Source: Azoarcus sp. (GTDB lineage: Bacteria; Pseudomonadota; Gammaproteobacteria; Burkholderiales; Rhodocyclaceae). From it: DNA of 10,290 nt. Position 1 is the first letter of the stretch; every line of letters begins with the position of its first letter. The notes under the pieces are model-generated. The model was not told the origin of the DNA, did not search any database, and worked only from the letters and a program-made list of their open reading frames with translations. Location of the stretch: positions 1 through 10,290 of the forward strand of contig JAIRWW010000231.1 of NCBI GenBank assembly GCA_031268685.1. The letters are read 5' to 3'. A program made the position numbers and the translations under genes. Positions 2,435 to 6,542 of this stretch are shown piece by piece.

Positions 2435-2440
2435 TATAAT
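2435..2440 (+). promoter_or_regulatory. Candidate -10 hexamer (TATAAT) for the metal-ATPase cluster
   Basis: A perfect sigma-70 -10 hexamer sits six bases after the M61 stop codon, in an AT-rich stretch. No good -35 lies 16-18 bases upstream (that stretch is AGGAAA-like). A TG two bases upstream of the hexamer is close to, but not exactly, an extended -10. The predicted start of transcription near 2447 would leave a leader of about 35 nt before the first gene at 2482. I saw no convincing 19-bp Fur box here. Confidence 0.45.
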
Positions 2441-2481
2441 TTTCACTGTTCACTATCGTATTGTTCGACGAGGATCATTTC

Positions 2482-2904
2482 ATGCCATCAATCGTTTCTT
2501 CCACGCCCGGACGCATACGCATTCGCCACAAGGCGCTTGCAAATGCCCGGCACAGCGGGCATTTGCGGGCCGCATTTCTCGCTCTCGACGGCATTGCGCG
2601 TGTCGATGCCAATGCCGCCGCGTCTTCGCTTGTCGTGCATTACAATGCCGCCGCCATCCCGGTCGAAGCAATGGAGCGCGCCGTAGATGAAATTGTCGCC
2701 GCCGAACTCAAGGCGCTGCACGCCGGGCGGGGCCGTGAAGCGGCGGTGAATCGCTACGCGAAATACGGCATGCTGCTGAGTCTCGCTGCTACGTTTGCCT
2801 TTGCGGGCAGGGGCACCCGGCGCGCCCATGCGCTTTCCGGCTGTCTGTTCGCCGCCTGTCTGGGCGTGCATCTTTATTTCCATCGCGGCAGGATTACGTC
2901 TTGA
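2482..2904 (+). CDS. HMA-like (HMA2-type) domain protein with two C-terminal membrane helices; FezC-like candidate
   Basis: A 140-residue protein. Residues 3-72 fit the beta-alpha-beta-beta-alpha-beta ferredoxin-like fold of heavy-metal-associated domains. The first strand carries P-G-R-I-R-I-R (9-15), and there is no CxxC metal site. The helix/strand pattern continues with a G-I-A-R-V-D turn (37-42) and L-V-V-H-Y (50-54). Two hydrophobic segments follow (about 95-109 and 116-133), so the domain should be tethered to a membrane. I chose the ATG at 2482 over an in-frame TTG at 2461 because GAGGA (2470-2474) sits seven bases upstream. The stop overlaps the next start by 4 nt (TTGA), implying translational coupling. 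The same P-G-R-I-R strand recurs in the next protein and at the N-terminus of the ATPase, so all three probably share a binding surface. The FezC comparison is from memory of ferrosome clusters. Confidence 0.8.
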   Translation: MPSIVSSTPGRIRIRHKALANARHSGHLRAAFLALDGIARVDANAAASSLVVHYNAAAIPVEAMERAVDEIVAAELKALHAGRGREAAVNRYAKYGMLLSLAATFAFAGRGTRRAHALSGCLFAACLGVHLYFHRGRITS

Positions 2905-3266
2905 AAGCGCCTGGACAATCGCGTGCGGACGCAAACGAATCCCTGCGGGGTTATATTGCCCTGGCCGCCATAGTGCACCATATTCCGGGGCGGATTCGCC
3001 TTAAGCTGAATGCCAGCGCCGAAACTCTGCGCCAGATCGGGTATGCCGGTGTCGGAGCCGGGCGTTTCGGCGACGCGCTCGGCGCTGTTCCCGGTATCCG
3101 CCGAATTCAGTTGAACAGGTTGGCGCGTTCCGTTACTGTGGAATATGACAACCAGAGCATCCCGGATCGGGCCTGGCCCGATCTTTTGGCGAATCGATCC
3201 TCGCCGGAAGCCGAGGCATTGCTGGACCGCCTGCGGGATGGATGTCTACAGTCAGTTGATACATAA
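2901..3266 (+). CDS. Soluble HMA-like (HMA2-type) domain protein lacking CxxC
   Basis: A 121-residue protein starting at TTG, with an AGGA site (2890-2893) seven bases upstream and a 4-nt overlap with the previous gene. Residues 22-96 form a second HMA-like domain: first strand V-H-H-I-P-G-R-I-R-L (25-34), then a helix, V-P-G-I-R-R-I (63-69) and S-V-T-V-E-Y (77-82). Both cysteines of the classical GMTCxxC loop are absent, though a His-His pair (26-27) precedes the strand. No membrane segment or export signal is evident, so it should be cytosolic, perhaps docking to the ATPase or the small membrane proteins encoded beside it. A metallochaperone role is possible, but with no cysteine ligands a protein-interaction or non-thiol metal role is equally plausible. 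It ends 10 nt before the next gene. Confidence 0.75.
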   Translation: MKAPGQSRADANESLRGYIALAAIVHHIPGRIRLKLNASAETLRQIGYAGVGAGRFGDALGAVPGIRRIQLNRLARSVTVEYDNQSIPDRAWPDLLANRSSPEAEALLDRLRDGCLQSVDT

Positions 3267-3276
3267 GGAGAAAGCG

Positions 3277-3585
3277 ATGTTTCCCATATTACCTTTCGTG
3301 GCAGGCGTCCTCGTCGGCGCTTCGGCTATCGGTCTTGTCCGCAAGGCGAAAACCAGCCAAGGCGTGAACGAAGCCGTGGAAAGCGCCGGGCGGAAGATTC
3401 GCCGTACCGCCGTTTCCGGCCTGGATGCCATACGGCAATCGAGCGAGCAATGGCGCGACCGCCTGGCTTCCGGCGCGCCTGCCGCCGATGAGGCTCCGCC
3501 CGCTGCTGCGGACGAATCGTTGCGAGCGGCGGATGCAGTCGAGGCTGCGACGCCTAAACCCCGGGGGAAGAAGGAGCAAGGATGA
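3277..3585 (+). CDS. Small single-pass membrane protein, DUF5132/PacL/FezA-like
   Basis: A 102-residue protein with the AAGGAG ribosome site (3265-3270) directly upstream of the ATG at 3277. The extreme N-terminus is one hydrophobic segment (2-20) containing G-V-L-V-G (10-14), a GxxxG helix-packing motif. It is followed by a charged, probably helical region (22-62) and then an Ala/Pro/Glu-rich, likely disordered tail ending in K-K-E-Q-G. This build (short GxxxG anchor, amphipathic helix, variable tail) matches the DUF1490 PacL proteins that partner CtpC-type pumps in mycobacteria, and small proteins of ferrosome clusters. No metal-binding D/H-rich tail like that of PacL is visible. Its stop overlaps the next ATG (ATGA). 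A scaffold or organiser role for the ATPase is inferred; exact family membership is not certain. Confidence 0.75.
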   Translation: MFPILPFVAGVLVGASAIGLVRKAKTSQGVNEAVESAGRKIRRTAVSGLDAIRQSSEQWRDRLASGAPAADEAPPAAADESLRAADAVEAATPKPRGKKEQG

Positions 3586-3893
3586 AGAAAAAAAAGACGT
3601 ACAAGCCGCTTTCCCCGCGCGGCGCAGGTAACGATTTCGTGCGCGGGGCGCTGGCTGGCGGCATTGTGGCAGCCATTGCGCGGGATGACCGCCGCCCCCG
3701 CCTGGATCGCGCCGCCCTGCGTGCCGCCCTGCAAGGCGGCGCGGTGCTGGCGGCGGTTACGATGGCGGCGGATGCTTTTCAACAGCGGCGCTATTTCCGC
3801 GCGGCGTTGGCGGCAGCCGGAGCGGCTGCCAGCGTTCATGCGCTGCAATGCCTGCTGCCAAGCGAAGCCGCCGTTGCGGCCATCGAGTCTTGA
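3582..3893 (+). CDS. Small Ala/Gly-rich membrane protein of the metal-ATPase cluster, function unknown
   Basis: A 103-residue protein that I cannot assign to a named family. It starts with four lysines after Met, strongly basic, then has a hydrophobic segment (about 18-34) with G-A-L-A-G (22-26), another GxxxG. Two further Ala-rich segments (about 45-63 and 72-92) are compatible with membrane helices or a hairpin. One cysteine (C90) and two histidines or fewer argue against a thiol metal site. An AAGGAG lies about five bases upstream, inside the previous gene, and the start overlaps that gene by 4 nt, so the two are almost certainly co-translated. The positive N-terminus and location suggest a membrane partner or structural component of the ATPase system. 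The gene is followed by the only sizeable gap in the cluster (199 nt). Confidence 0.7.
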   Translation: MKKKKTYKPLSPRGAGNDFVRGALAGGIVAAIARDDRRPRLDRAALRAALQGGAVLAAVTMAADAFQQRRYFRAALAAAGAAASVHALQCLLPSEAAVAAIES

Positions 3894-3953
3894 TTCCGAA
3901 TAAACCTGGGTAAAGCCGAGGAAAACCCCGAGGAAATTCTGGACAATCCCGCG

Positions 3954-4014
3954 CGCCCTGAGCCTGCCGAGGGGTATTTTTCATGAAGTCAGGAGCTTCT
4001 ACAGACTCAGCCCG
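3954..4014. repeat. Imperfect inverted repeat resembling a dispersed intergenic proteobacterial repeat
   Basis: The left arm (3954-3972) contains CCTGAGCCTGCCGAGG. The right arm (3996-4014) contains CTTCTACAGACTCAG. Reverse-complementing the right arm and aligning the two gives 14 of 19 identical positions, with a 23-nt spacer. The core (CTGAG, C/T, CTG, then CCGA or TAGA) matches the common intergenic repeat known from many proteobacterial genomes with consensus near TTCGACAGGCTCAGGGCG. Here both arms look diverged. It could fold into a cruciform or RNA stem between the genes. Whether other copies exist in this genome cannot be seen from one window. Confidence 0.6.
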
Positions 4015-4052
4015 AGCTGGGATGAGCATTGCTAGGTTTTTATCCCCAAAAT

Positions 4053-4066
4053 GGCGCGCTTGCGCC
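4053..4066 (+). other. Small GC hairpin upstream of the FezA-like gene
   Basis: GGCGC (4053-4057) and GCGCC (4062-4066) pair around a GCTT loop and are followed by TTTA. It lies 14 nt before the GGAGGAG site. A 5-bp stem with a short T stretch is too weak to call a terminator; a leader stem or weak attenuator is possible. Confidence 0.25.
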
Positions 4067-4092
4067 TTTACCCACGATCTGGAGGAGTTTTC

Positions 4093-4428
4093 ATGAGCAA
4101 GAAAGGCAAAGCAAAAAAAGCTCGCAAGGCGGCTCGCCTCGCAAGCGGTTTCAGCGGTTTCAATAGCGCGAACGCCGCCGCGCCCGGTTTTTTCAGCGAA
4201 ATGGGAGCATGGCTGCGCAAGCGCCCGTCCGAGCAATTCCTGGTCGGCGCGGTCTTGGGCGCGGCGGCGGTCTATGTGCTCTCCAATGAAGAACTGCGCG
4301 CCAAAATCCTGAAAGGCGGCATCGAGTTGTACGGCAGCGTCGCAGGCGGCCTGGCTGAACTGCGCGAGCAGATGGCCGATATCAAGGCAGAGATAGAAGT
4401 GGAAAAAACGGGCGAAGGGCTGCCATGA
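4093..4428 (+). CDS. Small single-pass membrane protein, FezA/PacL-like candidate, coupled to the ATPase
   Basis: A 111-residue protein. The start at ATG 4093 is fixed by GGAGGAG (4081-4087) five bases away; an earlier ATG at 4051 has no such site. The N-terminus is very basic (seven Lys/Arg in residues 3-15) and is followed by a linker. A single membrane segment (48-64) contains G-A-V-L-G (52-56), again GxxxG. Then come a long charged amphipathic helix (65-105, with A-G-G at 84-86) and an acidic end. There are no cysteines or histidines, so direct metal chelation is unlikely. Its stop overlaps the ATPase start by 4 nt (ATGA), the tightest possible coupling, which suggests a stoichiometric partner. 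In ferrosome loci a small FezA is encoded next to FezB, and in mycobacteria PacL proteins scaffold CtpC; this gene fits that slot. The analogy is inferred, not proved. Confidence 0.78.
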   Translation: MSKKGKAKKARKAARLASGFSGFNSANAAAPGFFSEMGAWLRKRPSEQFLVGAVLGAAAVYVLSNEELRAKILKGGIELYGSVAGGLAELREQMADIKAEIEVEKTGEGLP

Positions 4429-6542
4429 AGGCTGGCGCACGCTGCTTTTCGGCGGTGTGGGCAGTACACCAGCTCCCGGCGCGTGTGCGCTTTCGTTATG
4501 TTTCCTGTACGCACGGCGGTTCCGCGGATGGTGTGGAGGAGCTTTCCCGCTGGATTGCCTGTTTGCCCGGCGTCATCGGGCAACGCATCAATCCCCGCGC
4601 CCGCGCCTTGGTCATCCAGTTCGATAGCGCCGTTACCGACGCCGAACAGCTGCGCGAGCAATTGCTCGCCCTGAGGCCGGAAGCAGGGAAGGACGCCGCC
4701 CGTAGAAAAGCGGCGCTTCCCCTGAATGCCCCGAAACGCCGCCAGTCTGGAAATTTGGGTGGTCTTGCCGCGCTTCTCGCCAGCGCCTTCCTGTTGCCGC
4801 CTGCCTTGCACCTGCTCGCCACAGCAGGTCTTGCCTTGCCGGTGCTGCGCAAGGGCGCGCGCGATTTCCGCGACAACGGCATCGGATCTCATGCACTAGA
4901 AGCTGTCGCGGTAGGCATTTCTCTTCTGCTGCGGGATACCGCATCGGCCAGCGCCACCATTTTTATGCTTGAACTGGGCGAATGCATGGAAGAATCCATC
5001 GTCCGGCGATCCGATGAACTCCTGAAACACCTTCTGAACCCAGTCGATAAAGAAGTCTGGGTAGAGCGTCAGGGACGCGAGTTTGTCGTCTCCGCCGACG
5101 AAGTAATCGTCGGGGATACCGTGATCGTCGGCGCTGGCGCCATCATCCCCGTGGATGGAACCGTGCTTTCCGGCGTGGCGCGCGTAAACGAGGCAACAAT
5201 GACGGGCGAGAGCGCGCCGGTGGCAAAATCACGCGGCGATATGGTGCTTTCCGGTACGCACGTAGAAGAAGGCCGCCTGCGTATCTATGCTGAACAGGTC
5301 GGCGCGCATACCGCCGTGGCGCGCATCGCCGATTACGTCGAGCAATCCCTGACCGTGAAAAGCGCGGCGCAGCTCGATGCCGCGCATCTGGCCGACCGGC
5401 TGGTTCCCTGGATTGTGGCGCTGGCGGGCGCTTCCTATGCCGTTTCCGCCGACTGGCGTCGAGCCGCCGCCGTGTTGCAGGCCGACTATGCCTGTGCGCT
5501 CAAGCTGGCGACGCCGGTCGCGTTCAAGTCCGCCATGTATCAGGCGGGCAAAAACGGCATTCTCGTCAAAGGAGCCGACGCCCTTGAGCGTCTCGCCGAG
5601 GCCGATACTTTCGTATTCGACAAGACGGGAACGCTCAGCTCTGGCTCCTTGGCCGTCACCGACTCCATCGCGTTCGACACTTCTTACAGTGCCGAAGATT
5701 TGATTTGCTTGGCGGCCTCTGTTGAGGAGCACTACTTTCACCCGATGGCGATGGCAGTGGTTGAGGCTGCGCGTTCCATGAGCGGGCGGCATTTCAACCA
5801 CAAGGAAGTCGAATTCGTCGTCGCGCACGGCGTTGCCAGCATCATCGACGGCCAGCGCATCGTCGTCGGCTCGCGCCATTTTATCGAGGACGACGAAGGC
5901 ATCGACGTTTCCCCCTACCGCGACACGCTCGACCGGCTCCATTGCGACGGCAAGACCCTGCTGTACATAGGCTTCGGCGGCAGGCTCCTTGGCGTGCTGG
6001 CCCTGCGCGACGTTCTGCGCGCGGAGAGCGCCGCCACCATTGCGCGGCTGCGCGCCCTGGGGGTCGGTAAAATCGTCATGCTCACCGGCGACCATGCCGA
6101 CCGCGCAGCCGAATTCGCCGCCATCCTGGGCATCGATGAATACCATGCCGATCTCCTGCCCGAACGCAAGGCCGCCATCATTCAAACATTGAAAGAGCAG
6201 GGCGCGCGGATCGCCTTCGTAGGCGACGGCGTCAACGACGCGCCTGCGCTGGCTGTTGCGCACGTCGGCATTGCCATGCAAAAAGGCGCGGATGTCGCCC
6301 GCCTCACAGCCGATGTCGCGCTCCTCGAAGACGACATCACCCGCATCGCCGATGCCAAGGCGCTGGCGCTGGCTGCCCTCGGGCGTATCTCGTCCAACTA
6401 CAGGCTGACCGTGGGGTTGAATACCGCCATTCTGTCGGCGGCGGCGCTTGGCCTTCTAAGCCCGGTTGCCGCCAGCGTGCTGCACAACGGCAGCACCATA
6501 GGCATTCTGTTGAACGCGGTCAGGCGGCAAAAGACCGTTTAG
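4425..6542 (+). CDS. Atypical P1B-type heavy-metal ATPase (P1B-6/FezB-like candidate)
   Basis: A 705-residue P-type ATPase. In order: an HMA-like domain (12-84) with L-P-A-R-V-R-F-R (17-24) and no CxxC; four hydrophobic segments (about 112-125, 126-142, 157-170, 173-189); the actuator domain with T-G-E-S (260-263); a further membrane pair (326-342, 346-364); the phosphorylation site D-K-T-G-T (D399); the nucleotide-domain His-Pro of P1B pumps (H439-P440); T-G-D (554-556); the hinge G-D-G-V-N-D-A-P (600-607); and two last helices with N666 and H-N-G-S-T (687-691). All catalytic residues are present, so it should be active. The membrane metal motif is Y-A-C-A-L-K (355-360) instead of C-P-C-A-L-G, so classical Cu or Zn/Cd transport is unlikely. 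Iron transport into an internal compartment, as for FezB, is the favoured inference; manganese or zinc export of CtpC type is the alternative. The start overlaps the upstream gene by 4 nt. Confidence 0.93.
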   Translation: MKAGARCFSAVWAVHQLPARVRFRYVSCTHGGSADGVEELSRWIACLPGVIGQRINPRARALVIQFDSAVTDAEQLREQLLALRPEAGKDAARRKAALPLNAPKRRQSGNLGGLAALLASAFLLPPALHLLATAGLALPVLRKGARDFRDNGIGSHALEAVAVGISLLLRDTASASATIFMLELGECMEESIVRRSDELLKHLLNPVDKEVWVERQGREFVVSADEVIVGDTVIVGAGAIIPVDGTVLSGVARVNEATMTGESAPVAKSRGDMVLSGTHVEEGRLRIYAEQVGAHTAVARIADYVEQSLTVKSAAQLDAAHLADRLVPWIVALAGASYAVSADWRRAAAVLQADYACALKLATPVAFKSAMYQAGKNGILVKGADALERLAEADTFVFDKTGTLSSGSLAVTDSIAFDTSYSAEDLICLAASVEEHYFHPMAMAVVEAARSMSGRHFNHKEVEFVVAHGVASIIDGQRIVVGSRHFIEDDEGIDVSPYRDTLDRLHCDGKTLLYIGFGGRLLGVLALRDVLRAESAATIARLRALGVGKIVMLTGDHADRAAEFAAILGIDEYHADLLPERKAAIIQTLKEQGARIAFVGDGVNDAPALAVAHVGIAMQKGADVARLTADVALLEDDITRIADAKALALAALGRISSNYRLTVGLNTAILSAAALGLLSPVAASVLHNGSTIGILLNAVRRQKTV

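Follow-up and report, generated by a model that had tools for sequence, protein, structure and literature searches.

A probable six-gene ferrosome (fez) operon in an Azoarcus genome shares its gene order with Rhodopseudomonas

Inspection of a 10,290-nucleotide stretch of an Azoarcus sp. contig (JAIRWW010000231.1; hereafter the window, meaning the whole stretch analysed), part of a 2.2 Mb assembly that is 83% complete, revealed six genes on the plus strand, p1 to p6, whose open reading frames span positions 2482-6542 and bound the locus better than the 2435..6542 of the initial annotation. The first gene begins with an ATG at 2482, preceded by GAGGA, and aligned congeners have a methionine at the same place. 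Four-nucleotide overlaps, read directly from the sequence, join p1 to p2 (TTGA), p3 to p4 (ATGA) and p5 to p6 (ATGA). The initial description of six same-strand genes with three such overlaps, encoding two HMA-like proteins, three small GxxxG proteins and a P1B ATPase lacking CPC, was thereby confirmed, and a motif count found no CxxC in any of p1 to p6. The flanks are housekeeping in appearance, with an M61 peptidase gene upstream and, on the opposite strand downstream, TamA-like, fructose-bisphosphatase and LPS-kinase-like genes.

The p1 protein (2482..2904, +) combines an HMA_2 domain, scored at about 33.6-33.7 bits by Pfam HMA_2 (cut-off 30), with a C-terminal helical hairpin bearing two histidines, which the initial annotation does not mention. 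Its C-terminus resembles DUF4405 at E 0.0019, below the Pfam cut-off, and such below-cut-off matches were obtained for 5 of 10 p1 sequences tested, the window's included, while Rhodopseudomonas p1 gave none. Both His116 and His130 are invariant in 29 of 29 aligned sequences that had been picked for matching the p1 profile over its length; in a looser set (n = 55), histidine occupies the first of these columns in 38 of 53 sequences and the second in 37 of 43. In the predicted structure (pLDDT 88) an HMA-like fold is followed by a 50-residue helix and then by a second helix carrying both histidines, and many of the best matches of this model in the PDB are HMA domains, with weak scores (E 0.02). 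The alignment also has a conserved GRxR, whereas R-x8-GR, an N-terminal motif of FezB, was not seen as such. The two invariant histidines on two C-terminal helices and the weak DUF4405 match recall the DUF4405 cytochromes; p1 differs from them in the HMA_2 domain standing in front and in the sub-threshold level of that match. FezC itself has been shown to be a b-type cytochrome (b-haem protein), related to DUF4405 and maybe homodimeric (PMC11334425). Judged from sequence, p1 may thus be a FezC-like b-haem protein, with a presumptive role for the haem.

The remaining small proteins match known families weakly or not at all. Starting at a TTG that overlaps p1, p2 (2901..3266, +) is a small HMA_2-type protein without CxxC that scores 24.9 bits against Pfam HMA_2, below the cut-off of 30, and has an orthologue in Rhodopseudomonas. 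GxxxG is present in each of p3, p4 and p5. The small YtxH-like p3 (3277..3585, +), with one GxxxG stretch, matched no Pfam family at E up to 1; it matches the p5 profile at 50.7 bits and has the same place in relatives. For the small helical p4 (3582..3893, +) three long helices are predicted (pLDDT 76), and its own profile, after iteration, found a match in 86 of 98 loci searched. The YtxH/DUF5132-like p5 (4093..4428, +) resembles DUF5132 (E 0.051) and, about as weakly, YtxH (E 0.069), neither match reaching the Pfam cut-off.

The last gene, p6 (4425..6542, +), encodes a FezB-type P1B ATPase that exceeds the cut-off of TIGR01525 (462.8 bits) and also that of the NCBIfam cadmium-family model TIGR01512 (351.8 bits, cut-off 313.5). 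Its N-terminus is HMA_2-like, scoring 83.6 bits with the p1 profile, a feature missing from the initial annotation. The membrane-helix motif reads DYACALKL, in the position of the CPC of E. coli CopA and ZntA. Among 104 ATPase frames (duplicates included), DYSCALKL was found in 67, DYACALKL in 17 and other variants in 14, and no motif was found in six. Alanine for serine beside the motif cysteine (DYAC versus DYSC) occurs in 8 of the 9 ATPases of the genus, the window's included, and in scattered other lineages; the DYACALKL loci outside the genus are L041, L114, L119, L123, L127 and L146. In-frame stops in the ATPases of genomes G014 and G457 were considered as marks of broken copies, which was ruled out, both being terminal stop codons.

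A phylogenetic tree of 59 ATPase rows was generated by a quick method with SH-aLRT support only, leaving out the partial L003 and including as comparison pumps E. coli CopA and ZntA, C. metallidurans PbrA, the pumps of pSymA and other P1B ATPases. The PbrA row is a pMOL30 gene recorded as a heavy metal translocating P-type ATPase. The FezB-type rows all fall together (SH-aLRT 99), apart from CopA, ZntA, PbrA, the pSymA pumps and the other P1B sequences, and the window ATPase falls in an 18-row group (SH-aLRT 100) with those of Rhodopseudomonas, Magnetospirillum and Azotobacter. A pSymA pump with TPC, which we take to be the P1B-5 pump Nia, is long-branched and attaches basally (support 80), and a further pSymA row (925 aa), apparently another P-type ATPase, also has a long branch. 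The P1B-6 label for FezB-type ATPases is taken over from the initial annotation as an assumption, the references in the tree being without a labelled P1B-6 or P1B-7. Grouping with Cu+ or Zn/Cd pumps, named in that annotation as the outcome that would speak against its proposal, was not what the tree gave, p6 standing with its Rhodopseudomonas orthologues and CopA, ZntA and PbrA lying outside. Thus p6 shares the P1B core with P1B-1 CopA and P1B-2 ZntA/PbrA but lacks their CPC motif and belongs to a separate tree group; from motif and tree, copper or zinc efflux by p6 appears unlikely.

The six genes were matched one by one, in order and with similar spacing, in Rhodopseudomonas sp. BR0M22 (locus L116), whose ATPase is about 62% identical to that of the window, and the same genes in the same order were found in three more Rhodopseudomonas genomes (L182, L183 and L184). 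A scan of species genomes was classified by profile, with H for HMA_2, Y for YtxH-like (p3/p5 profiles), G for p4 and B for the ATPase. Among the loci of the best 80 of 593 relatives, with some genes lying out of sight beyond the end of a contig or the 4 kb limit, HHYGYB on one strand was found in 14 (L116 among them), HYGYB was contained in 56, and Y stood directly before B in 74. The "expanded set of small proteins" put forward in the initial annotation is therefore unsupported, the exact order or at least its last five genes being this common and six fez genes being present in R. palustris also. The same order of HMA_2 gene, YtxH-like, GxxxG, YtxH-like and ATPase is seen in the gammaproteobacterial fez-like loci L089 and L167 (Vibrio furnissii), but there the first HMA_2 gene is divergent, lacking by eye the two-histidine hairpin in L089, and the ATPase is 38% identical. 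Two Deltaproteobacteria MAG contigs (L142:2989-8067 and L143:3076-8073) carry two window-type ATPase genes each, divergently transcribed and ~0.6 kb apart.

Ferrosomes of R. palustris have been assigned six fez genes, the fez operon of strain CGA009 being RPA2333-2338 (Grant et al. 2022, cited in PMC12016538). The rpa2333-2338 genes have also been listed among those downregulated at low light, in a set of genes compiled from 14 or more of 17 strains and over half iron-related (PMC6879726). The window operon resembles that of CGA009 in having six genes, and the order of p1 to p6 and the ATPase group are common to BR0M22 and the three congeneric genomes; it differs in the alanine for serine of the metal-site motif, the comparison being with BR0M22. 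Across 16 Rhodopseudomonas genomes, four have the window-type ATPase, one has a second type and 11 have neither at the cut-off used. The second type (L185, in genome G460, of the same genus as BR0M22) is a fez-like locus with an ATPase 42% identical to the first and different small genes around it. The closed genome G459, of 5.270 Mb, has its ATPase at 2.549 Mb, a position that would fit the locus numbers RPA2333-2338 if, as we presume, the strain has ~4,800 genes.

Taken together, the six genes very probably constitute an ordinary fez (ferrosome) operon and not a new kind of compartment. This reading, already proposed in the initial annotation, is supported because the ATPase groups with Rhodopseudomonas orthologues, away from CopA, ZntA, PbrA and the P1B-5-like pump, and because the same six-gene order recurs there. 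Gene set, gene order and ATPase clade carry the assignment, from which we infer the iron cargo, haem, vesicles and the role of each protein. In the working that we consider most likely, the six proteins would enter a membrane compartment, where p6 would pump ferrous iron from the cytoplasm into the lumen and p1 would carry electrons through the membrane, allowing stored iron to be oxidised on entry or reduced when it is let out. The p2 protein would serve as an HMA_2 adaptor, with no metal binding through a CxxC site, and p3 to p5 as small helical membrane proteins shaping or coating the vesicle. Weighing against the fez reading, the link to proven ferrosome strains (which we take to be CGA009, S. 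putrefaciens CN-32, D. magneticus and C. difficile) runs through the genus Rhodopseudomonas; the sub-threshold DUF4405 match, the lack of an E. coli-type Fur box in the window, the alanine at the motif and the TIGR01512 score count against it as well.

The same alanine, in 8 of 9 ATPases of the genus, and the losses of HMA_2 and p4 in two congeners would also suit a related compartment for a different metal, or a system descended from fez that has given up vesicle formation in this lineage; we consider this improbable, the window's own six genes being intact and DYACALKL being found outside the genus too. Also improbable is the alternative raised in the initial annotation, a cytoplasmic-membrane efflux complex of the PacL/CtpC type in which the ATPase would export Zn or Mn, its folding or scaffolding aided by the small membrane proteins, for while the TIGR01512 match and the presence of small membrane partners favour it, the gene order is that of the Rhodopseudomonas operon, p6 lies outside the ZntA/PbrA group (in a tree without CtpC sequences), and none of p1 to p5 matched DUF1490, the PacL family, at E up to 1. 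A separate search of whole genomes for DUF1490 is uninformative, the profile having matched neither the window's own genome nor any control.

Fur has been reported to repress fez in C. difficile (PMC12574912). The window's genome contains a FUR-family gene. No Fur box of the E. coli type was found in the window at up to 3 mismatches, and no sigma-70-type promoter was found between 2300 and 6750. There are 8 FNR-like sites with 2 mismatches where 2.5 would be expected, a count reached in 1 of 200 shuffles; they are spread over the window, and the nearest one before p1 (2283-2296) lies inside the M61 gene.

At a strict cut-off the ATPase was detected in 9 of 21 genomes of the genus, several of whose assemblies are incomplete. 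The other eight carriers, out of 20 congeners, hold the gene set too, two of them without p4, and its association is not put down to chance. Among these eight, M61 directly precedes the operon in two (L033 and L034) and does not adjoin p1 in another four (L035, L036, L037 and L039), and in L038 and L040 the contigs end ~0.5 kb upstream, putting this neighbourhood beyond view; the operon therefore sits at different places in the genus. When 397 Pseudomonadota genomes were drawn, the window's genome and seven others (at 565-744 bits) scored at least 565 bits, the next P1B ATPase scoring 437 bits, with at most two candidates scored per genome. The operon adds a small-genome betaproteobacterial lineage, in which presence varies between congeners, to the carriers of ferrosome genes. 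For four congeners (G003, G014, G015 and G018) the isolate codes hint, as a guess, at a termite-gut origin; among the papers searched, none dealt with both ferrosomes and termites. Taken by itself, the operon of the window has few lessons that Rhodopseudomonas does not provide.

Two congeners, both draft assemblies, carry a reduced fez operon: G001 (L039:5086-8270) and G003 (L038:494-3642; L095 is the same contig). In both, p1 consists of the two-histidine hairpin only, its HMA_2 half being lost, and p4 is missing, while p2, p3 and p5 are kept. The ATPase has an intact core and a start codon that overlaps p5 in an ATGA-type junction, having lost its N-terminal HMA_2 domain; only these three rows, representing two distinct loci, lack that domain among the 104 ATPase frames. 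These two natural cut-down operons point to fez parts that may be dispensable. Tentatively, and with somewhat less than even confidence, we suggest that fez is undergoing reduction in the genus; if G001 and G003 still form ferrosomes, they might define a minimal gene set for the organelle, with the stand-alone HMA_2 protein p2 serving in trans.

A lack of bacterioferritin in fez carriers was considered and set aside, since all 21 genomes of the genus have a PF00210 match and an extra gene pair occurs only in three without fez. This adjacent pair of ferritin-family genes was seen in 3 of 12 congeners lacking fez (G004:C34, G006:C219 and G007:C68) versus 0 of 9 fez carriers, numbers too small to conclude from. 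Lastly, in one congener (G019, L033:5350-8560), p5 and the ATPase are separated by ~3.2 kb that contain two long reverse-strand frames and one forward frame that is RDD-like by eye.
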